From Stentor roeselii (lineage: Eukaryota > Ciliophora > Heterotrichea > Heterotrichida > Stentoridae): a stretch of DNA of 64,000 nt. Each line of letters begins with the position of its first letter. Positions within the stretch are counted from its first letter, which is position 1. The stretch is taken from the NCBI GenBank assembly GCA_006503475.1, contig RSEH01000006.1:124001-188000 (forward strand). Reading direction: 5' to 3'. Of the stretch, positions 6,448-38,448 are shown in pieces. The notes below the pieces were generated by a model. That model was not told where the DNA came from. It saw only the letters and a program-made list of their open reading frames with translations, and searched no databases. Both the position numbers and the translations under genes were made by a program.

Positions 6448-9108
6448 TTAAAACTCCAAATCCCAATTTTTATTCAAGTTCAACCTGCAAATATAAGACT
6501 CAGGGCCAGTTTCATAAGACGAAAAGATTTCATTAACCGGAACCATTTTTTTCAGAGCTTCTTTAACCTCAGGATCAACATGAGTTGGATTCGGCAAGAA
6601 CGGAGCCTTTATTTGCTTATTATTCAACATTTCCCAGTTTAAGCCAATAAACCAAGGATGATTTTTAAATTTTTCAATACTACCTCTTAAAACTGGGTTC
6701 TTGTTCAGGAGTTCACAGAGAATATGTCTTGACTTACTCAAAGGGTCAACATTTGAAGGAAACACGAGACGATAATTTAAGATCTGCTGATAAATTTGCA
6801 TTGGATCTGATTCATTGTGGCCAAAAGGATACTTTTTAAACATCATGTAATATAAACACACTCCAAGTCCCCAGAGGTCGACAGCTGTTTCATAACCTTC
6901 TCCAATTATCACTTCAGGGGGTAAATAATGAAATGATCCAATCACAGTATAAGTCCTTCCACTAATCTGCTTAGAACATGAAAAATCAACCAATAAAGGA
7001 TACCCCTGATCATCAATCATAAAGCTTCTCAAAGTAGGATACCTAAGCACAATATCCCTATTATGAAGATACTCAATAATCAACAACAAGCACCCAGTAT
7101 AAAACCTTGCATTCAATTCAAGTGAAAGTTTAACATTATCAATAACATCAACAAAAGGAACTCCAGGAACATATTGAAAAAGCATGCAAAGTCTAAAAGA
7201 GTCTTTAAAAGTCTTCAACAAGCTGACCATAAAAAAATGGTCAACAAGAAGCATAAGTTTTTTGCTCTGAATCAAATTAACCTGGTCCTGGTCACTTATA
7301 AAGCGATTTCGCTGCATGGACTTCAAAATATAAAGCTTTGAGTCCTCCGGGTTCACACAAAGAAAATGCGTAGAAAAGCTATTCTGAGTAACAACCTTTA
7401 CAAATATCAAGTCTTTAATTGAAATTGAAATATCTTGAATTTTTATCCGTTCTAACAACCTGCTTTGCATTTGCTCGTCTATCACTGAGGAAAATTGCTT
7501 GTTGGTTAACACCCAGCATTCCACTTCGTTTAAAGCTTTTACTGTTGCTGAACGGCTTGTTTTAAATAGTAAAGACCTTTCACCAAAGTAGTCAAGTCTT
7601 CCTATATGCCTGACAACTGAGTGTTTTTTAGAGATTTCAACATTTCCTGATTTTATTATGAAAAATGAGTCACCTGGTGCGTTTTCAGAGAAAATGACTG
7701 ACCCGCTGGGATATTTTACGAGATTCAGCATTTTTCCTAGTTTTTCAAGACTGAAACTAGAAAGTGATCTAAAAAGTTTCATATCTTTGATCACCCTAAC
7801 AATATTATTCCTCTCAATAACTGATTCCAATTCACCTTCAACACTTTTTTCAAACTCTTCTCTTGAAATTTCAATAACTTCTGAGTCTTCAACAGCAGCT
7901 AAGCTTTCTCCAAACACAAAACTTCCACCCTGAAGACAATTCACTCCAATAACATCAGAAGTTTTAAACTTTTGCTTTTTTCCTTCAATTCTTCCAGAAA
8001 GTAAGACAAAAAATGACTTGATTTCCTTTCCAGCAACAACTAAATGACTACCTTTAACTATTTTTTTTGCCTTTCCCAAAGAAGCGAGTTTATTGATCTG
8101 TTCAGGGTTGAGACCTTTTAAGACAGGATCATTTCCATAAGCCATTTTCTGAGAATTCAAAAAAATGATGTCTTGCAGGTTGTTTCCCAAGGCCGACTTC
8201 AAGTCATCAGAATATAAAGACAAACAAGAAAGACTTTCTAAAACAGTGATCGTCGCAGTCCTCAAGTTGTTATTCATCAGAGCCTGCTCTCCAAAGTACT
8301 CATTTTTAAACAACTTTCTAATCTCCAAGCCATTTTTCGTGACCACAGCAGCCCCTTCCTTAATAAAATACATCGAATTTCCCAGATCTCCTTCTTTCAC
8401 TACTTTCGCCCCAATAGAAAACCTTTCAAATCTCATGCAATTTGCGAGTTTTTCCTTTTGTTTCGTGGTAAGTGCCTGAAAAAAGCTAAACTCTTCAATA
8501 AACCGAATATTTTCACTGTACTTCTCAAAACTCATCCTTTCCAAGACCTGCCGAAATTCGAATCGACTCAGTCCCCAAAGCGCGGTTTTTGCTAAAGCGA
8601 CAGCAGAGGCCGTCCGAGGCGAGTCCTGCATAAGCGCGACTTCTCCGAAACTATCCCCGGGGGCCAAAGTCGCCACTGCGTTTAAGTTGATCTGCACTTC
8701 GACCTTTCCCTGCGCAATTATATAATAAAAGTCACCAACTGACCCTTGCTTGAATATAAGTCCTTGCTTTTTGAATGAAAAAAGCTTCATCACAGTGATT
8801 ATCGCTGACAACTGCTCCTCTGATAAGTTAGAAAAAATGAAATGCTTTTGAAGGGCTGAACGAATCAACTGGAGGTCTTCGGTTGACTTGAAGTTGTCGG
8901 ATTTCGATGATTTTGAGTGATGGTGGTCTATGTTGTTCTGAGTTGATGTGCTTCGGCTGTGGTTTGATGACTTTAAACGGTGGGAAAATAATGGGGCGGT
9001 GGAGTCTGGATGGGACTTGGAAAATATCGAACTTTTATCTGGAACCTCGGAAATTTGTAAGATTCGGTTTGACTTGTTTGATGAGGATTTAATGCAGCAT
9101 GAACCCAT
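6448..9108 (-). CDS. PKG-like protein: four cyclic-nucleotide domains plus degenerate kinase domain
   Basis: The 886-residue product starts MGSCCIKS, a good N-myristoylation and palmitoylation signal, so it is probably membrane-bound. Four cyclic-nucleotide-binding domains follow. Their phosphate-binding cassettes are FGEVALMQDSPRTASA (about 153), FGEQALMNNNLRTATI (about 272), a degenerate FGESLAAVEDSE (about 395) and FGERSLLFKTSRSATV (about 517). Four domains with the third degenerate match the alveolate PKG layout known from Apicomplexa. The kinase domain (about 565-830) keeps a Lys in YILKSM. It has no glycine-rich loop, its catalytic loop reads LRYPTLRSFMI where YRDLKPENLML is expected, and DFG is DFS. 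It is therefore predicted to be a catalytically dead sensor or scaffold. The APE-like PPEV and DLWGLG motifs remain. Confidence 0.85.
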   Translation of the reverse strand: MGSCCIKSSSNKSNRILQISEVPDKSSIFSKSHPDSTAPLFSHRLKSSNHSRSTSTQNNIDHHHSKSSKSDNFKSTEDLQLIRSALQKHFIFSNLSEEQLSAIITVMKLFSFKKQGLIFKQGSVGDFYYIIAQGKVEVQINLNAVATLAPGDSFGEVALMQDSPRTASAVALAKTALWGLSRFEFRQVLERMSFEKYSENIRFIEEFSFFQALTTKQKEKLANCMRFERFSIGAKVVKEGDLGNSMYFIKEGAAVVTKNGLEIRKLFKNEYFGEQALMNNNLRTATITVLESLSCLSLYSDDLKSALGNNLQDIIFLNSQKMAYGNDPVLKGLNPEQINKLASLGKAKKIVKGSHLVVAGKEIKSFFVLLSGRIEGKKQKFKTSDVIGVNCLQGGSFVFGESLAAVEDSEVIEISREEFEKSVEGELESVIERNNIVRVIKDMKLFRSLSSFSLEKLGKMLNLVKYPSGSVIFSENAPGDSFFIIKSGNVEISKKHSVVRHIGRLDYFGERSLLFKTSRSATVKALNEVECWVLTNKQFSSVIDEQMQSRLLERIKIQDISISIKDLIFVKVVTQNSFSTHFLCVNPEDSKLYILKSMQRNRFISDQDQVNLIQSKKLMLLVDHFFMVSLLKTFKDSFRLCMLFQYVPGVPFVDVIDNVKLSLELNARFYTGCLLLIIEYLHNRDIVLRYPTLRSFMIDDQGYPLLVDFSCSKQISGRTYTVIGSFHYLPPEVIIGEGYETAVDLWGLGVCLYYMMFKKYPFGHNESDPMQIYQQILNYRLVFPSNVDPLSKSRHILCELLNKNPVLRGSIEKFKNHPWFIGLNWEMLNNKQIKAPFLPNPTHVDPEVKEALKKMVPVNEIFSSYETGPESYICRLNLNKNWDLEF

Positions 9109-9276: not shown

Positions 9277-12200
9277 TTATTTATTTGGGAGTTTTCCTTC
9301 AATCACTTTAAGATTCCTTTTGATTGTTTCGAGCTCTTTTAAGGTGTCTTTGATCTGTAAGTAATTTTTAGTGTTTTCTTCTTGGAATTGCTTTATACAG
9401 TTTGTAACTGCTTGGATTTTTCCTTCCCAGTGATTCTCATATGATTCAATTCTAGGGTCCTGACAAACATGTATAAAAACCTTTTCATTCTTATCCCTAT
9501 TCCAATAAGTCAAATACTCAATTTCCAAAATATTTTCCAACATATCCGCGCTCTGTATTTCAATACTTTCATTTTTGATGCGATCAAAAGAGTCTCCAAG
9601 TACAGCAATAAGAAGATTGAGCATGATGACAACATTAAGCAAACTCGCGAGTACGAAATAAACATAATCCAAAGGTTTAACCTGGTGAGTGAATTCTTGT
9701 AAATTAAGCTGATAAGGTGCCTGCCAAATCATATAAAACCAGTTCTCCCCATTATCCTGAGCAATAAGATGCAAGAACCCAACAGCCAAAGTCGAGTAAA
9801 TAAAAATAATAATAAACGGAAAAGCATCTAAAATCGCATGAAAAACAAGCCTCACATAAATCCTAGTACAAGAAAATATCTTCAAGCTGTAAAACCCTTG
9901 CACAAAAGAAAAGAACGCCATGAACCACCCAATATAATAATTATCTTGTCCCAAATACAACAAGATGCTCCAAACGCTGCACAATAAAAACCGAATAATT
10001 GAAATCGAGTTCCAGAAGTCAAAATGAATCATAATTCCAATAAAATAAGCCTTCATCAACTCAGTCATCAAAACCAGGACATTGAGAACTGAAAAAGAAA
10101 CAATTATTAAAGCATTCGGCTCTTTGGACAGCAGCTGGGCGACCATGAGTCCCGTAGCGAGCCAAAGCATGACCGTCACAAACAAAATCGGGGCAAAAAC
10201 CTGCGACCACTTAATTTGAATCAAAGTCTGAATAATGTGAGTTCGAAGCACTTTCGGATTAGAACACATTAAAATACTTTGAATCAGAGAAATACTTTCA
10301 ACAGCGCCTATATTCATACAGACCTGGATTGGAAGTGACTTGAAAACAACTGGCTGCTCCAAGTAAAGTGCTTTGTTGTCATTCAAAAACATTGACTTCT
10401 GAAGTTTTTCACTGTCAGTCAGGTGGTAAATCGGCAGACTTTCCTTCGGCACTCCGAACTTAGGAAGGGTCTGACTTTCCAACCCGCAAAAAAGCGTTTC
10501 AAGGAAAGTAGGTAAAAAAGGTGAACTATTCTGAAGTAAGTCTGTAAAATCATTTCGAATCGCATTGGTAAAGTTAAAAAACCTGTCAGGGTCTGTCTGT
10601 TTAACTCCAACTAAAAATGAAAGAATCACGTCAACACACCCTTGAGAATTACGAGCTAAGGCGTAATGAAGTGGCGAGTTTCCAAGGGTATCAACTGAAA
10701 GATAAGTACCTAGCGTAAGTGTCTTTTCTAGAAACTCATCATTTCCTAAAAACGAGTAAACATGCGCCAGGTTCACTCTTAAAGAACTAAAAACAATATT
10801 AGCAAGTCCAGCCCTCGGAGGACGGTTCAACTTAATCTTACTCATCAGCAGAAACGAATCAATAGGTCCTAAAAAGTCAGCAAGTTCCAAATTCTTGATA
10901 TTCTGCAAGTCCCACAAACGTACTGTCAGGTCTTCCGACCCAGATACTAAAAACTTCTGATCAAAAGTAAAGAAAACACTTCTAATGGTATTTCCATGTC
11001 CTAAAAGAACAAACTCTTGTCTTTTTTCTCGCGCGTTCCATACTCGGATAGTTGAATCATTTGAACATGACGCGAAAAGGTTCCCGTCGCTTGCGAAGCA
11101 GACACTTTTGACCCACTTGTTATGAAAAGTGAATTTTGTGAGACTGGTCTTTTCTCGCCAGTTCCAAAGATGCACTGAGTTGCTTCGGTCACCCAGTGCA
11201 AGGAGGGAGTCGTCGAAATTGAGGGAGACACATTCGATCATTCCACTTTTTGTTTCGATTTTTTTGAAAAGGTTCATCGTTTCCACCTTCCAGATCCGGA
11301 TTGTGTAGTCTGCGGCTCCGGAAACTATGAATTTATTTTCGTGGGTCACTTTTACTGTGAACACTGTGTCGGTGTGACCTTCAAGACGACCTTGACGCTT
11401 TCTGCTTAAAAGGTCCCAAACCATTACTAGCTTGTCTTGAGCTCCGCTTACGGCGAATTTTGAGTCGTGGGAAACTGTCACGCAGAATATTGGGTTTTCA
11501 TGACCTGTTAGAGATATTAACTCTTTTTTTGTCGCGAAGTCCCAGATTCGCAAAGACTTGTCACCTGATACGCTTATTATGTACTCCATGCTTTGAGTTA
11601 CTGCCACACCCCAAACAGTATCTTGATGTCCATTAAGTATACAAACCTCTTCTTTTTTCTCAATCGACCAAATCCTAATAGTCTTATCTTCACTTCCTGA
11701 AACAATAAACTGATTATCTGCAGTTGTAGTAACAGACATGATACACTTAGAATGTCCTTTCATAACAGAAACCCTCGAAGCCCTTCCAATTTCCCATTTC
11801 CTCAAAGTCTTATCAGAAGCTCCGGACAATAAAAACCTTCCATCTTTTGACAAACTAAGTCCAAAAACATATCCTTCATGTCCTTCCAAATTAAATTCTT
11901 CAACTTTTTCCTTTAAATTAACGACTCTCATAGTTTTATCAGCAGAGCAAGTAATAAAATATCCAGAATCCGAAGTAGTGACCAAGTTCCTGACCCAATT
12001 ATTATGAACATCGAAGATAAACACTTCAGACTTGTCATCATAATTCCAGACTTTTACGATATTATTCCTGGTTCCGATTATGATAAACTTCGAATCCGCA
12101 GTGACAGCCAAGCTTTGAATGACTCCAGCGTTGACGTTGTGTTGACTGATGAAACTTTTAGTCTCGAAGTTCCAGATTCTTAAATTTGCATCCCAACCAC

Positions 12201-12765
12201 CGGCTAGAACATGTTTTCCGTCTTTTCCGAGAGCAAGTCCGAAGACTGAACTGCTGCTGCAGTCGAGAGCAGCTACTTCATTTGTTGCTTCGATATTCCA
12301 GATTCTTACTTTGTAGTCACCTGCTCCTGATAATAGAAATTTCTTATCTTTTGACATCGCGAAACAATATACACCTGCTGTATGGCCTGATAATGTTGTG
12401 ATTAGAACTTTGTTTCTCCAGTCCCAGATTTTTATGTTGTTGTCCCAGGCTCCTGAAATCAAATTTTCTTCATTCTCTGTTAATTCTAATGCGTTTACAG
12501 TGTTTTCATGACCTATCAACTTACCGAAAATGTCTCCTGTCGCTGACACCCAAATAATGATTGTTTTGTCTTCAGACCCTGAAAAAAGATACTGGTTGTC
12601 ACTTGTTGATAGTGTCGACCAAACTGCTCCTTCATGCCCTGAGTATATCTTGTGGTTATATGGGTTCCAATCATCCAGCTCGCTCATAACTTGCTCCATT
12701 GTTGGACTTACTTCTGGGTTTTCGAGACTTTTGACGTACAGAGGCTCAGAGAGTTCTATTTCCAT
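9277..12765 (-). CDS. WD40 (14 repeats) - ankyrin-like - TRP-type ion channel fusion
   Basis: The 1162-residue product has fourteen WD40 repeats at about residues 38-640 (for example GHEGAVWS...SGSEDKTIIIW), enough for two seven-bladed propellers. An ankyrin-like helical stretch around 690-740 contains GNSPLHYALARN. A hydrophobic ion-transport region with about six membrane segments spans roughly 855-1060. The last one reads VVIMLNLLIAVLGDSFDRI, the form seen at the end of S6 in TRP channels. A C-terminal coiled coil (about 1115-1160) may drive tetramer assembly. WD40 propellers as cytoplasmic sensing modules on a cation channel are inferred. A paralogue with the same order lies at 34840-38448. 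The start is in the context GATATAAATGG. Confidence 0.85.
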   Translation of the reverse strand: MEIELSEPLYVKSLENPEVSPTMEQVMSELDDWNPYNHKIYSGHEGAVWSTLSTSDNQYLFSGSEDKTIIIWVSATGDIFGKLIGHENTVNALELTENEENLISGAWDNNIKIWDWRNKVLITTLSGHTAGVYCFAMSKDKKFLLSGAGDYKVRIWNIEATNEVAALDCSSSSVFGLALGKDGKHVLAGGWDANLRIWNFETKSFISQHNVNAGVIQSLAVTADSKFIIIGTRNNIVKVWNYDDKSEVFIFDVHNNWVRNLVTTSDSGYFITCSADKTMRVVNLKEKVEEFNLEGHEGYVFGLSLSKDGRFLLSGASDKTLRKWEIGRASRVSVMKGHSKCIMSVTTTADNQFIVSGSEDKTIRIWSIEKKEEVCILNGHQDTVWGVAVTQSMEYIISVSGDKSLRIWDFATKKELISLTGHENPIFCVTVSHDSKFAVSGAQDKLVMVWDLLSRKRQGRLEGHTDTVFTVKVTHENKFIVSGAADYTIRIWKVETMNLFKKIETKSGMIECVSLNFDDSLLALGDRSNSVHLWNWREKTSLTKFTFHNKWVKSVCFASDGNLFASCSNDSTIRVWNAREKRQEFVLLGHGNTIRSVFFTFDQKFLVSGSEDLTVRLWDLQNIKNLELADFLGPIDSFLLMSKIKLNRPPRAGLANIVFSSLRVNLAHVYSFLGNDEFLEKTLTLGTYLSVDTLGNSPLHYALARNSQGCVDVILSFLVGVKQTDPDRFFNFTNAIRNDFTDLLQNSSPFLPTFLETLFCGLESQTLPKFGVPKESLPIYHLTDSEKLQKSMFLNDNKALYLEQPVVFKSLPIQVCMNIGAVESISLIQSILMCSNPKVLRTHIIQTLIQIKWSQVFAPILFVTVMLWLATGLMVAQLLSKEPNALIIVSFSVLNVLVLMTELMKAYFIGIMIHFDFWNSISIIRFLLCSVWSILLYLGQDNYYIGWFMAFFSFVQGFYSLKIFSCTRIYVRLVFHAILDAFPFIIIFIYSTLAVGFLHLIAQDNGENWFYMIWQAPYQLNLQEFTHQVKPLDYVYFVLASLLNVVIMLNLLIAVLGDSFDRIKNESIEIQSADMLENILEIEYLTYWNRDKNEKVFIHVCQDPRIESYENHWEGKIQAVTNCIKQFQEENTKNYLQIKDTLKELETIKRNLKVIEGKLPNK

Positions 12766-17678: not shown

Positions 17679-19580
17679 TCACTTAATTACCATAAAGTTA
17701 ATATCTTCATCAGAACTAGCAATTTCTACTTGTTTCCCCCCAAGATCTTCAAAAACCTCATCATCCTTTTCCCTGATACTAGTAAAGCTTTCCCCTTCAT
17801 CAATCCAGTGTTTAAGTTTCCCCATTTCCCAAACCCCTTTCCTCCTAACACCTTCTTTATTAACGATTTCCCCTTCACCCTCTTCCTTAAACTGAACAAT
17901 TTTCCCTTCAAAATACGTGAAATCAGTATACTTAAGCAACCCAACTCCCACATTTCCGTTAAACTCTCCAACAAATTCCCTGCCATCATGAAATTTGACG
18001 ACTCCATATCCAAAAATTTCTCCAGCTTTAAACTTTCCCTCATATTTCCAGTCCTTAGTAACAAGAGTTCCTTTTCCATTTCTTTTTCTATCAATAAATC
18101 CTCCTTCATAACTTTCTCCATTCTTCAAAATTTCAATTCCAGATCCAATCACATCAAAATTCAAAAAGTTTCCCTGAATGACTCTTCCGTCATTAAAATG
18201 AAAAATTCCAGACCCTGCAGGAATATCGTCTTTCCAACTGCCTTCAAACCAGTCAAGACATGCGAAGATCATCCTTCCTTTTCCTTTCCTTTGAAGCATT
18301 TGGAAGCCTCCTTGATAGACATTTCCATTCGGGTAGAAAATGTTGCAAAAGCCTTCAGGTCTCTTATCTTTAAGCCTTCCAAAGAAAATGCTTGAGTCGC
18401 TGAGCATGAAAAGTTTAGAATCATCAGGAAGATTTTCCATGTAAGGAAGAGTTGAAATGAAAGAAATCACTTCAGCGTCCTTGTAAGATTCAACTAGTTC
18501 TGTTAAATCTTCTGACTCCTCTGATTCACTTTCAACGAGAGGAAACTGCTCAATTCCTGTAGTCCTTGGCGAGGCGAGAGGTGAGAGAAGAGCAGAAGTG
18601 GCTTGAGAGAATTCTGAAAAGTCAAGAATTGTTTTATTTTCCGGTAGTGTTTGGAAGTAGTCGTTAAGAAAAGGCAGGACGTCGATGACTGGAGAGACGA
18701 TGATGTTATCAGAACGGAAGATATGCTGACGTTTTTGAATCTTTTTGAAGTACTTTTGTTTTTTCCTCTCATTCAAACCACTGTACCACCCTGGCATCCA
18801 CAGTCCTTTTACAGTCTTTCTTCGATGGACCAGGTCCTTGCCGAGCATCTGAAGGACTCCCGAGTGGTCTAAACAGTCAAACATATAAAAAAACCCTCGT
18901 TCTTTCAAGTAGCTAAAAGCCAAAGCCCCTAACTCTCCTCCTAGTCCGTCGAAACAAGCTGCGGGTTTGAGTTTATCACAGATGTTAAAGAATTCTTTCT
19001 TGAAACCCTCTGCTGCGCAGTTAATCACGTATTTTGCACCGATTTCTATCAATTCTCGCACTTTTAACTCGTTTTTAGCGAGGTTTATGCAGGTCACGTC
19101 TTTGTGGGCGCACCATCTTACTATCATCTTTCCTAGCGTTGATGAAGATAAAGTGTTTATCACGCAGGTGAACTTCTTTCGCTTTATTATTTTTCCTATC
19201 ATTATCATTGTCAGAGGCATCAACATCATTGTTGAACCCTTGATGAAACCGAATTCTTCGTTTATTATGCAACAGTCACTTGACTCGCAGAGAACGTACT
19301 CGGCCCAGGCACCGGAATTTGAAGAGTTTTTGAAAAAACAGACGTTTTTACCTTTTAACTTCTGGGTTTTGAAACCTGAACCTGCTTTTACTACTGTTCC
19401 TGCACCTTCAAAACCAGGGGTGCCGGAAAAAATTCCAAATGTGCCTCGAAATTTGTGAATATCAAGTTTATGAATTGGTGAGCAGATAGTTTTAATAAGT
19501 ACTTGCCCTTCAGCAGGCACTGGAAGTGGCACTGTATCAATCAAACATTCTTGAGTTTGAGTCACGATGATGGCTTTCAT
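17679..19580 (-). CDS. MDR-family dehydrogenase fused to MORN repeats
   Basis: The 633-residue product has an N-terminal medium-chain dehydrogenase/quinone-oxidoreductase module (about 1-310). It starts MKAIIVTQTQECLIDTVPLPVPAEGQ in family style, with TPGFEGAGTVVKAGSG and a Rossmann region near 140-250 (NTLSSSTLGKMIVRW). A Ser/acidic linker follows, then about seven MORN repeats at 400-595 (YEGGFIDRKRNGKGTL, FVGEFNGNVGVGLLKY). No catalytic zinc ligands are evident, as in quinone reductases and enoyl reductases of this superfamily. MORN repeats often bind membranes or phospholipids and organise cortical structures. The fusion suggests a membrane- or cortex-localised NAD(P)H enzyme; substrate unknown. 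Confidence 0.85.
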   Translation of the reverse strand: MKAIIVTQTQECLIDTVPLPVPAEGQVLIKTICSPIHKLDIHKFRGTFGIFSGTPGFEGAGTVVKAGSGFKTQKLKGKNVCFFKNSSNSGAWAEYVLCESSDCCIINEEFGFIKGSTMMLMPLTMIMIGKIIKRKKFTCVINTLSSSTLGKMIVRWCAHKDVTCINLAKNELKVRELIEIGAKYVINCAAEGFKKEFFNICDKLKPAACFDGLGGELGALAFSYLKERGFFYMFDCLDHSGVLQMLGKDLVHRRKTVKGLWMPGWYSGLNERKKQKYFKKIQKRQHIFRSDNIIVSPVIDVLPFLNDYFQTLPENKTILDFSEFSQATSALLSPLASPRTTGIEQFPLVESESEESEDLTELVESYKDAEVISFISTLPYMENLPDDSKLFMLSDSSIFFGRLKDKRPEGFCNIFYPNGNVYQGGFQMLQRKGKGRMIFACLDWFEGSWKDDIPAGSGIFHFNDGRVIQGNFLNFDVIGSGIEILKNGESYEGGFIDRKRNGKGTLVTKDWKYEGKFKAGEIFGYGVVKFHDGREFVGEFNGNVGVGLLKYTDFTYFEGKIVQFKEEGEGEIVNKEGVRRKGVWEMGKLKHWIDEGESFTSIREKDDEVFEDLGGKQVEIASSDEDINFMVIK

Positions 19581-34839: not shown

Positions 34840-37800
34840 ATGTCAGAAGTCAAATCGTATTCGCCTCTGGCAATCGCCCTGGTGAGTTCATTAATAAACC
34901 CAAAGCACCAGACCGATTCATCCTCAGTGCTAAAAAGTATTTTCTCAACAAATTCTCTACATTCCTACGTATTGGAGTTAAAAAAAGCGATTCTTATAAT
35001 GAAAAAGTACATCCCTTCCGAAATAACCACTCCATTCAAAGGCAACTGTTTAGAAATCACAAGATGCGGGCGATTCTTTGTCTTCGGGTCAGTTGAAGGC
35101 CGAATCGGAGTCGTGGACATTGGGTCAAAGGAAGTCCTTCAAGACATTCCTCTGAGCGGGGGAAGCATCTACTCAATAGCGATGTACAATTACGACACCA
35201 ACTTCTTAGCAGCGGGCAAAGACGGCATCATCAGGAACTTCGACTTCAGAAGTTTCCAAGTTGTCAGCACTTTTGAAGGCCATGAAAAAGAAGTGAATAA
35301 AATCGTTGTAAGCGTCGATGAAAGTCTTTGTTTCTCTGCCAGTGATGATACCACTGTGAGAGCTTGGAACCTTTATGATACTAGTGAAACTAAAGTGCTT
35401 TATTATCATGAAAAAGCTGCTCTTTGCTTGGATAAAAGTGCTGATGGAAGTTATTTAGTCTCTGGAGGAGCGGATAAGAAAATCAAGATTTTTAACCTTC
35501 AGACTGAAGTAGTTGAACAGACTTTAAATGAGTTTACTTCAAGTGTTTGGTCTGTCAAGATCTCGAATACGAACTCCTTCGTCGCCGGGGGAGACAGTAA
35601 CGGAAATATTAAGTTATGGGAGATGGAAAGCTACACCTTGGTCAAAACGCTTTCAGGACACGAAAAAAGAGTGACTCATATCGAGTTTAACAAAGAGCAA
35701 ACCGTGTTGATCTCATCAAGCAACGACCATACTCTCAGGATCTGGGACTTGGTAGAAGATAAAAACGAATTAATCCTCACAGGCCACACAGGCTGGGTCA
35801 AGTCCTTCAAACTATCCCCAGACCAGAAGTTCATTTATTCAATTGCCGAGAATTATAAGATCCTATCATGGGTGTCTCCTCGATTCAACAAGTCCTGCAG
35901 AAGAAGTTGCCATCAAAACTCAATACAATTCATGTGTTATAGTCGGAACAACCACCTGATCTTCACTTCAGACTTGACAGAAACAAAAGTTTGGGATGTT
36001 CAGACCAAAAGTCTTTTAAAGTCCATGAAAAATATTGATAGGGTCACTGCAATGAATGTTGATTCAGATGGGTTGACTTTACTTGTAGCGTTTTCCAATT
36101 ATGATGTTTATAGTTGGAACGTTGAACAAGAAAGCTTTATACCTAAATACAAACATTCTGCTATTATCACTTCTCTTGTTCCAAGCCCTGACGGGCAGTT
36201 TCTCGCTGTTGCTGATATCAATTTCAGAGTAATGGTCTTGTATAAGAGAAATTTTGCAATTGCGAATGTTTTCAGAAGTCATAACAACGTAATCAACGTT
36301 GTTGTTTTCAGTAAACCTGTGATGAGTGAGAATGACCAGCTTTTTTCTGGAGGTGAAGAATCTTGGATTTTCATGTACTCGATCAGAGAGAACAAATCAA
36401 GGAAATTACCAACAAGTCACACTTCTCCGATATCAGCTCTGAATGTTTCTAGAAGTAACGACTTTCTCATTTCAGGAGATCGTGAAGGAGTCTTTAAAAT
36501 CTGGAGTATCGCTCAGACGATTTGCATAAAGACTCTTCGTTCTCACACTGACAGGATCACAGGTATCTACTTCAGCGAGAACATGAAATATTTCTTGATT
36601 TCTTCATGTGACTCGAGTATCTCCCTGTGGAACTCAGTCAGTTTCGCGAAGGTCACTCATTTGAAGTCGAAGTACCCAGTGACTTCTTTCATTTGCACGA
36701 AAAATGAGTCAGAATTAGTTTCAGCAGAAGGGACTGAGCTTCAGTTCATGGACAACCCTTTGAGGACTACTCAGTTTTTTATATATGGACCAGGTCGCGA
36801 GTATTACTCGTTCATGAAGTACATCATTAATATTTGTGATGGGAATGATCAGGAGCATGACCCTTCGATGGATAACTGGATGGTTGTTCCTTATGAAATC
36901 AATGCACTTCACTTTTATTCTTATTTCAACTTGCCAGGACACTTGAAACTAGCACTTCAAAATAAAGGTCCTTTTTATGTTTCTAAGTCGGACTATAACC
37001 CTTTGTCTATTGCACTTCACAGGAACTTTAGAGACTGCATCAACGCGATCATTAAACAAATCAGACTTAATGTGAATGAAGACCCTTATTCTGTGAGTTT
37101 TATTGAAAACTCGATAGTCAAGCTAAATGAGCTCGGGTTTCGAGGCCTGGATGAGTTCTACTCCTGTATCTTGTATAAATCAGATGATAAACTCTTACCA
37201 AAGTTCTGTGATGAGCATGTAAACCTCCCAGTAGTCTACAACTCAAGAAACCTTGCACCTCAACAAAAAGACTTTTTCAGTCCCGACATGATCTCAGGCT
37301 TCGGCCGTCCTTTAGCATTCTGGCAAAGTGCTTTAAAGATCGATGCAGTAATGGGCTCAAAGGACTCAATAATCTTTTTAGAAAGTCTCTTGAACTGTCC
37401 AAACCCGAACATCTTCAAAACCGATTTTATCCGTCAATTGATTTTATACAAATGGGGATATTTAAAATGGGTGTTAATGCCACAAGCTGCAGCTTATGTG
37501 CTTTATCTTCTCTTCCTGATATTCTACTTATTACTAACAGACCTTAACGACAACTATTCACTTTCCGGAATGTTTTTCTTAAACATCAGCCTGGCCTGTT
37601 ACGAAATCTTCCAACTTACCCTAACAGGAGTAAAGTACTTCAAAGATCCTTGGAACTACATCGACTTTTTCCGAATGACCAGTTGTTTCGTCTACATAAT
37701 CTTCGCATGGGTGGGTTTCCAGCAGTTCATTTCTCGTCAGGTGTTAGTTTTAGTGATTTTCCTCAGCTGCATCCGAGGAATCAGTTACTTTCGCCTTTTC

Positions 37801-38448
37801 GACAACACCCGATACATGATCAACTTGTTAAGAGAAGTGATAAAAGACATGAGATCTTTTCTTATCCTATTTTTCTATTCCACCTACTCATTCGCCTTGA
37901 TTTACTTTATAATGGTTAACAACTTGCTGAAGTACAGTCCTGAAGCTGAAGCTTCTCGGCAAGACTTCTCTCATTACATCGCCACTTCTTACCTGTTAAG
38001 TCTAGGAGAGTTCGACACAAACAACTACGGAACTTTCGAGTGGATTATTTTTTTCTTCGCTTCTGTGATCAACCCGCTTATCATGTTGAATCTCATCATT
38101 TCCATCATCGGCGATACCTTCGGCCGTGTGAAGGAAGAGCAAGAAATCGCTGACATGCAAGAACTCACATCAATGGTCGTTGAAGGCGAGTACGTTTTAT
38201 TCTGCAAGAGGAACCAGGGGAAGAAGAGCTATATGCAAATATGCAAAGAAGCCGAGCTGACCAGTGTCGAAGCTTCAGTCGACCGAGAACTCGACAATTT
38301 GAAGCTTCGCATTCGGATGATTGAAGAAGTTGTTTTGAAGAAGTCGAATGAAATGAAAACTGAAATAAACGAAACTGTATTTGGAGTGAATCAAAAGGTT
38401 GATGAGTTGACAAGTCTTATTGAACAGATAAGTTTGACCCAGGATTAA
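34840..38448 (+). CDS. WD40 - TRP-type ion channel fusion, second paralogue
   Basis: The 1202-residue product repeats the layout of 9277-12765. A long WD40 region at about residues 70-640 has about a dozen repeats (GHEKEVNKIVVS...SASDDTTVRAWNL, GHEKRVTHIEF...SSSNDHTLRIWDL). A helical ankyrin-like linker contains YNPLSIALHRNFRDCINAII, and about six membrane segments lie at roughly 875-1090. S6 ends VINPLIMLNLIISIIGDTFGRV, and a C-terminal helical coil follows (RELDNLKLRIRMIEEVV). The WD repeats are more eroded than in the first copy, several lacking the terminal Trp-Asp. It is most likely a cation channel of the TRP/polycystin superfamily; gating and location are unknown. An overlapping frame from 34806 is a shadow. 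Confidence 0.85.
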   Translation: MSEVKSYSPLAIALVSSLINPKHQTDSSSVLKSIFSTNSLHSYVLELKKAILIMKKYIPSEITTPFKGNCLEITRCGRFFVFGSVEGRIGVVDIGSKEVLQDIPLSGGSIYSIAMYNYDTNFLAAGKDGIIRNFDFRSFQVVSTFEGHEKEVNKIVVSVDESLCFSASDDTTVRAWNLYDTSETKVLYYHEKAALCLDKSADGSYLVSGGADKKIKIFNLQTEVVEQTLNEFTSSVWSVKISNTNSFVAGGDSNGNIKLWEMESYTLVKTLSGHEKRVTHIEFNKEQTVLISSSNDHTLRIWDLVEDKNELILTGHTGWVKSFKLSPDQKFIYSIAENYKILSWVSPRFNKSCRRSCHQNSIQFMCYSRNNHLIFTSDLTETKVWDVQTKSLLKSMKNIDRVTAMNVDSDGLTLLVAFSNYDVYSWNVEQESFIPKYKHSAIITSLVPSPDGQFLAVADINFRVMVLYKRNFAIANVFRSHNNVINVVVFSKPVMSENDQLFSGGEESWIFMYSIRENKSRKLPTSHTSPISALNVSRSNDFLISGDREGVFKIWSIAQTICIKTLRSHTDRITGIYFSENMKYFLISSCDSSISLWNSVSFAKVTHLKSKYPVTSFICTKNESELVSAEGTELQFMDNPLRTTQFFIYGPGREYYSFMKYIINICDGNDQEHDPSMDNWMVVPYEINALHFYSYFNLPGHLKLALQNKGPFYVSKSDYNPLSIALHRNFRDCINAIIKQIRLNVNEDPYSVSFIENSIVKLNELGFRGLDEFYSCILYKSDDKLLPKFCDEHVNLPVVYNSRNLAPQQKDFFSPDMISGFGRPLAFWQSALKIDAVMGSKDSIIFLESLLNCPNPNIFKTDFIRQLILYKWGYLKWVLMPQAAAYVLYLLFLIFYLLLTDLNDNYSLSGMFFLNISLACYEIFQLTLTGVKYFKDPWNYIDFFRMTSCFVYIIFAWVGFQQFISRQVLVLVIFLSCIRGISYFRLFDNTRYMINLLREVIKDMRSFLILFFYSTYSFALIYFIMVNNLLKYSPEAEASRQDFSHYIATSYLLSLGEFDTNNYGTFEWIIFFFASVINPLIMLNLIISIIGDTFGRVKEEQEIADMQELTSMVVEGEYVLFCKRNQGKKSYMQICKEAELTSVEASVDRELDNLKLRIRMIEEVVLKKSNEMKTEINETVFGVNQKVDELTSLIEQISLTQD

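Follow-up and report, generated by a model that had tools for sequence, protein, structure and literature searches.

The gene at 6448..9108 (minus strand) of the window, by which we mean the whole 64,000-nucleotide stretch of DNA analysed, is best read as a duplicate of a type III cGMP-dependent protein kinase (PKG) that has kept its cGMP sensor and interdomain switch, has lost phosphotransfer and would now act as a cGMP-gated pseudokinase; we put the chance of this reading at roughly two in three. PKG is treated as a kinase that converts cGMP into phosphorylation, and it is a drug target in apicomplexan parasites, while pseudokinases are already a known kind of protein. If the reading is correct, a kinase fold can read out cGMP without phosphorylation, and a repeatedly evolved set of such genes would offer naturally occurring cases in which the switch stands apart from the enzyme. 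This also means that not every PKG-shaped ciliate gene should be counted as a kinase.

Domain layout and cGMP sensor

The gene, hereafter L001, is an open frame of 886 codons and a TAA stop, with an ATG start and an in-frame TAA codon immediately upstream of it; all of its features given below lie on the minus strand. In the Pfam scan, cNMP_binding matched four stretches (E 8.9e-60) and Pkinase (PF00069) matched with E 4e-34, indicating a protein kinase fold by homology. The top PDB match by HMMER was 5dyk, a cGMP-dependent protein kinase (E 3.7e-138, residues 74-840), and the best solved relatives were cGMP-dependent protein kinases, with PKA chains also matched. We take 5dyk to be Plasmodium falciparum PKG (PfPKG), and its numbering also fits the residues named in PMC6628679. 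Considering these E-values and the long open frame, the match is not by chance. Type III (protist) PKGs have more than two cyclic nucleotide-binding (CNB) domains N-terminal to the kinase in one chain, which is the case for L001. The Pfam stretches and the 5dyk alignment thus bear out the preliminary description of this DNA, in which four CNB domains in the alveolate PKG order are joined to a kinase domain. A hidden intron was considered and rejected: the sole 15-nt GTA..TAG match in the gene (7058-7072) is coding, specifies YLHN and part of an Arg, and aligns residue for residue with the paralogues. Such matches number 17 in the window against a mean of 15.7 in shuffles, that is, chance frequency. 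A structure prediction made without an alignment gave a mean pLDDT of 33.4, and the model was left unused.

The sensor carries three good phosphate-binding cassettes, as had been claimed. They are found in CNB-A (about residues 86-200; 8509..8853), with the cassette FGEVALMQDSPRTASAV at 8599-8649; in CNB-B (about residues 201-318; 8155..8508), with FGEQALMNNNLRTATIT at 8245-8295; and in CNB-D (about residues 436-550; 7459..7803), with FGERSLLFKTSRSATVK at 7537-7587. Each is of the FGE...R form, has the cassette Glu and Arg, and places a Thr or Ser after the Arg. By alignment, CNB-C (about residues 319-435; 7804..8154) is degenerate and has no cassette Arg (7873-7917). One CNB domain lacking critical residues defines type III alpha PKG, and CNB-C of PfPKG does not bind cGMP, according to the available part of PMC6628679; L001 has the same feature. 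CNB-D also supplies the first residue of the capping triad, R511, and the alignment places the other two, Gln558 and Asp559, in the linker helix that follows (7405..7458, with ERIKIQDIS at 7426-7452), so that the triad R511, Q558 and D559 is complete. In PfPKG, the capping triad that assembles with cGMP consists of R484, Q532 and D533, the R484A mutant is inactive, and the N-lobe is tethered by the WDIDF motif of the tail (PMC6628679). The equivalent of this tether in L001 is the C-terminal WDLEF (6451..6465).

L001 therefore resembles PfPKG in having four CNB domains followed by an AGC kinase domain, a CNB-C without a working cassette, the triad, the activation-loop YT and the C-terminal WDxxF. 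It shares the domain order, cassettes, triad and WDxxF with intact paralogues such as L003, L004 and L012 as well. Unlike L001, PfPKG has a complete catalytic set (GRGTFG, K570, E589, RDLKPEN and DFG), and the intact paralogues keep K72, D166, N171 and D184 (PKA numbering).

Catalytic residues of the kinase domain

The kinase domain comprises an N-lobe (about residues 569-655; 7144..7404) and a C-lobe (about residues 656-820; 6649..7143). HMMER and MAFFT alignment with the paralogues placed the catalytic positions. At the glycine loop (7372..7392), L001 reads VTQNSFS where the paralogues have LGxGxFG; the alpha-C Glu position is Ser615 (7264..7266); the HRD/catalytic loop (7021..7047) reads LRYPTLRSF, so that RDLKPEN has become RYPTLRS, with Asp changed to Tyr690, Lys to Thr692 and Asn to Ser695; and the DFG position (6979..6987) reads DFS. 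The VAIK position (7321..7329), placed by MAFFT with the paralogues, reads Ile594-Leu-Lys596, the Lys being kept and the Ala changed to Ile. In total, all three loop Gly, the alpha-C Glu, the HRD Asp, the catalytic-loop Lys and Asn, and the DFG Gly are lost; the VAIK Lys596, DFG Asp708, HRD Arg, activation-loop Thr, PPE Glu732 and F-helix Asp744 are kept. From the set found in competent kinases (loop Gly, Lys, Glu, HRD Asp, Asn and DFG), L001 thus retains no more than Lys596 and the DFG residues Asp and Phe.

Pseudokinases are recognized by the loss of at least one of the VAIK Lys, the HRD Asp and the DFG Asp, and in L001 the HRD Asp is Tyr690. Judged by these residues, catalytic death of the domain is well supported, and L001 is a PKG homologue and not a PKG enzyme. 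The missing glycine loop and missing HRD Asp of the preliminary description are confirmed, and its statement that a proper DFG is lacking applies to the Gly only, as the metal-binding Asp708 is still present. Since the VAIK Lys and the DFG Asp are kept, L001 may still bind nucleotide.

A catalytic Asp moved to another position was looked for in the alignment and rejected. Between LHNRD and DFS, no gap interrupts the alignment with the seven paralogues shown, which means that the HRD Asp has not moved; over the whole kinase domain there is no gap against L002 and a two-residue gap against L012 and L004. The upstream NRD (683-685) was also considered as a shifted HRD; it falls on the variable ERG, ERD or SKS of intact paralogues, in which the true motif has its RD further along the chain.

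PKG paralogues, rates and trees

L001 is not a single-gene oddity, as the survey of its paralogues showed. Searches of the assembly containing the window (44.4 Mb, 522 contigs) gave at least 51 matches to the whole protein, at least 142 to the kinase domain and at least 78 to the sensor part. At least 75 frames have the size and layout of a PKG, and 74 of them (L001-L074) were read, the frame outside this set being C180:54151-56736; frames of 390-418 codons matching part of the sensor, and kinase matches in other contexts, stand outside the count. The layout of the 74 comes from alignments, with Pfam run on 11, and L042, L054 and L056 lack part of the N-terminus. We call a frame dead if it lacks at least one of K72, D166, N171 and D184, and live otherwise. 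Twenty of the 74 are dead (L001, L027, L029, L044, L055, L056, L060, L062 and L063-L074), and the 54 live frames keep all four residues. The preliminary description had proposed counting the paralogues that lack such residues, and by this count L001 is one of many. The losses comprise D166 in 10 frames, N171 in 7, D184 in 12 and K72 in 15 (Arg in two), the VAIK residue in the most decayed N-lobes being placed by MAFFT alone. The ten proteins of a second Pfam scan, seven of them dead, all still match the kinase model. The nearest paralogue of L001 is L002, which is 47% identical and half-decayed: live by the four-residue test, it lacks two of the three loop Gly, the alpha-C Glu, the catalytic-loop Lys and the DFG Gly, and retains the HRD Asp, the catalytic-loop Asn and the DFG Asp.

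The sensor has fared differently from the switch among the dead genes. The cassette Glu/Asp and Arg are present in CNB-A, -B and -D of 19, 16 and 19 of the 20 dead frames and in all three domains of 14; the live frames have them in 46, 47 and 45 of 54, and in all three in 37 (L042, whose row has no CNB-A, is counted as lacking that cassette). All three capping-triad residues (Arg, Gln, Asp or Asn) are present in 44 of the 54 live frames and in 3 of the 20 dead ones, L001, L027 and L029, and these are also the only dead frames that combine the triad with all three cassettes. A retained switch is thus not the rule among the dead genes, and L001, as far as its residues indicate, is one of the few with a complete PKG-type cGMP switch. 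A Ser/Thr following the cassette Arg, which is linked to cGMP preference, occurs in CNB-A, -B and -D of 7, 5 and 12 of the 20 dead frames and of 42, 48 and 46 of the 54 live frames. The tail motif, in a loose form, is found in 48/54 live and 9/20 dead frames.

Several groups of paralogues stand out. L063-L074 form one clade (99/97 in the 74-row tree) of twelve genes, with the VAIK Lys absent in all twelve and the DFG Asp in ten; L068-L070 lie three in a row on contig C417. Considering that few dead genes have the triad and that the Ser/Thr after the Arg is less frequent in dead than in live genes, this clade may respond to another ligand or by another route. The reverse case is seen in L053, L054 and L059, in which the four essential catalytic residues are complete and the CNB-A, -B and -D cassettes are lost; these would be cGMP-blind PKG-like kinases. 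Close-set PKG clusters occur on contig C129 (L037, L042, L047 and L054) and contig C391 (L034, L045 and L057), which is a sign of local duplication.

The N-terminal MGSCC of L001 (9094..9108) is a possible acylation site. An MG start is present in 59 of the 74 frames (15/20 dead, 44/54 live), and in 54 of them (15 dead, 39 live) it is accompanied by a Cys within residues 3-6; the starts of L007, L038 and L040 were shifted by script to a downstream MG. The classical N-myristoylation pattern is satisfied by 28 of the 74 frames, and MGSCCIK of L001 fails it at residue 6. Membrane anchoring of L001, which had been proposed from the MGSCC start, is plausible, but an MG start is a family trait and L001 fails the strict pattern.

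The kinase domain of the L001/L002 pair has diverged unusually fast relative to its cGMP domains (z about 5). This was measured on the fixed topology of the 62-row tree, with 61 of its 62 rows taken in and L058 and L063-L074 left out, by comparing kinase with CNB-A/B/D distances against 35 intact rows, for which the log2 kinase/CNB ratio was -0.37 (sd 0.11, range -0.57 to -0.15). The ratio was raised in L062 (+0.30, z 6.3), L001 (+0.19, z 5.2), L002 (+0.15, z 4.8) and L055 (+0.03, z 3.7), followed by L049 (z 2.9, not counted dead) and L060 (z 2.8); the z values are descriptive only because the rows are related to each other. It was not unusual in the dead L027, L029, L044 and L056 (z 0.5 to 1.2), and it went in the opposite direction in L053 (z -7.0), L054 (z -5.1) and L059 (z -2.8). 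Between L001 and L002, identity is 59, 52, 32 and 49% in CNB-A, -B, -C and -D, 40% in the N-lobe and 52% in the C-lobe, the N-lobe thus being the lowest of the folded domains except CNB-C. Identity to L004 in the N-lobe is 62% for L012, 43% for L002 and 36% for L001, and in the C-lobe 56%, 44% and 41%, respectively; CNB-A, -B and -D hold at 40-51%.

Both L001 and L002 have open frames and look to be under continued constraint, and L001 does not look like a relic. In all eight segments compared between the two genes, differences are fewer at second than at third codon positions, including the N-lobe (0.26 vs 0.59) and the C-lobe (0.25 vs 0.52); between L002 and L012, the N-terminal segment is an exception to this order. 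Because synonymous sites are close to saturation, we judge selection from these codon-position contrasts only, and not from a firm dN/dS.

The dead state requires at least six changes both on the tree of all 74 rows (residues 74-820) and on the tree from the sensor columns only (residues 74-568), by a parsimony count of changes without direction in which some placements, such as that of L062, are weak. On the sensor-only tree, an AU test rejected a single clade of the 20 dead rows (p 0.0008); since this group was defined by its residues only once the data were known, the result calls for caution. L001 and L002 pair as fully supported sisters in these two trees and in the earlier tree of 62 rows, where the intact L012 joins them (support 98). 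In the sensor-only tree, L001 and L002 belong to a set of three rows (98/98) whose remaining member is probably L012, as this row comes next by path distance. With kinase columns included, the 74-row tree leaves the placement of L012 unresolved.

Proposed mechanism, alternatives and genome context

We propose the following for L001: cGMP would bind to CNB-A, -B and -D; capping at CNB-D, together with a shift of the linker helix, would move the kinase fold by analogy with PfPKG; and the kinase-fold surface released in this way would bind, shield or compete for the partners or substrates of live PKG paralogues, possibly at the membrane. Our best guess for the role is thus a scaffold, a decoy or a binding partner. 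A scaffold or substrate decoy is favoured because, between L001 and L002, conservation is higher in the C-lobe than in the N-lobe; however, CNB-A and -B of PfPKG touch the C-lobe (PMC6628679), so that contact with the sensor may instead be the cause of this conservation.

Three other explanations were weighed. L001 may be a passive cGMP buffer, in which only the CNB domains matter and the kinase fold is vestigial. The ordinary conservation of CNB-A, -B and -D next to a relaxed kinase domain is what a buffer would leave, but the C-lobe is as similar between L001 and L002 (52%) as CNB-B (52%) and CNB-D (49%), and the parts coupling the sensor to the kinase fold (linker helix, triad and tail tether) are all kept, which makes a buffer unlikely. 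A weak or unusual kinase, in which Lys596 and Asp708 bind the nucleotide and another residue substitutes for the HRD Asp, would agree with the retention of these two residues, of the F-helix Asp744 and of the PPE Glu732, and WNK, HER3 and SelO, kinases once called dead, are precedents for unusual activity. Against this, six catalytic features have gone together, the HRD Asp and the catalytic-loop Asn among them; the change of Ala to Ile594 would be expected to crowd the adenine site, as the corresponding A568 of PfPKG belongs to the C spine; and PfPKG E589A, a change of the alpha-C Glu, is called inactive (PMC6628679). We consider residual activity of this kind quite improbable. The fast divergence of the kinase domain relative to the CNB domains could also mark a functionless pseudogene decaying after duplication, yet 886 codons are open with a start, a stop and the C-terminal WDLEF, three cassettes and the triad are intact, and second positions differ less than third positions in 8/8 L001-L002 segments, C-lobe included; such decay is very improbable.

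A cGMP-gated pseudokinase thus remains our preferred reading of L001. The cGMP-regulated pseudokinase of the preliminary description stands as far as the lost catalytic residues, the kept cGMP sites and triad and the faster-diverging kinase domain are concerned, but it is one of many. A wider and doubtful possibility is that PKG has split two ways in this lineage, into dead-kinase sensors (20/74, at least six changes, twelve-gene clade) and cassette-dead kinases (L053, L054 and L059), which together would form a large cGMP network with the dead PKGs as standing output modules and not as relics. In this genome, cGMP may act through binding partners as well as phosphorylation.

Among the open-access matches listed, no title or abstract opening describes a PKG pseudokinase, in agreement with the earlier statement that this role change is not usually described for PKG; a description in a Stentor kinome preprint or the Stentor genome paper is possible. 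As far as the available parts of these sources go, Paramecium and Tetrahymena have multiple PKG paralogues, with the word pseudokinase absent (PMC6628679); 38 unplaced kinase genes of Ichthyophthirius are called likely pseudokinases (PMC3341644); the pseudokinases of PMC6694467 and PMC6337498 are those of receptor guanylyl cyclases and of rhoptries; and the PKG of PMC5371900 is a single putative one. The receptor guanylyl cyclases GC-A and GC-B likewise use a kinase fold without catalysis for regulation in cGMP signalling (PMC6694467, available part). Their pseudokinase domain controls the cGMP-producing enzyme, whereas that of L001 would lie downstream of its own cGMP sensor. No relatives of L001 in viral contigs were confirmed by a single-protein query, which reaches close relatives only.

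The genome contains 77 matches to cyclase domains, so cyclic nucleotides are probably made in quantity. Sixty-eight of these matches are paired within 34 frames of 1,879-2,290 codons, whose size and pairing fit the alveolate P4-ATPase guanylyl cyclase, for which they are candidates; the known enzyme has two cyclase domains (PMC6694467, available part). In 50 PKG-like frames, the next stop is TAA in 29, TAG in 14 and TGA in 7, and four of the TAGs lie inside genes. A 15-nt GTA..TAG stretch is found at the in-gene TAG of L011, L041, L048 and L049, and L058 provides a fifth case. In the related L041, L048, L049 and L058, the 15-nt intron occupies one shared position next to the alpha-C helix. Three standard stops and 15-nt introns suit a heterotrich such as Stentor, and the host is probably a heterotrich ciliate; a search with an exact 18S rRNA primer pattern gave no match.

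Other genes of the window include a WD40-repeat protein (34840-38448, plus strand) with a C-terminal Ion_trans domain (E 1.8e-9) and a second WD40-repeat protein (9277-12765, minus strand), whose C-terminus is hydrophobic and channel-like by eye and has no Pfam channel match. A 633-aa protein encoded at 17679-19580 (minus strand) combines alcohol-dehydrogenase domains with a MORN match.
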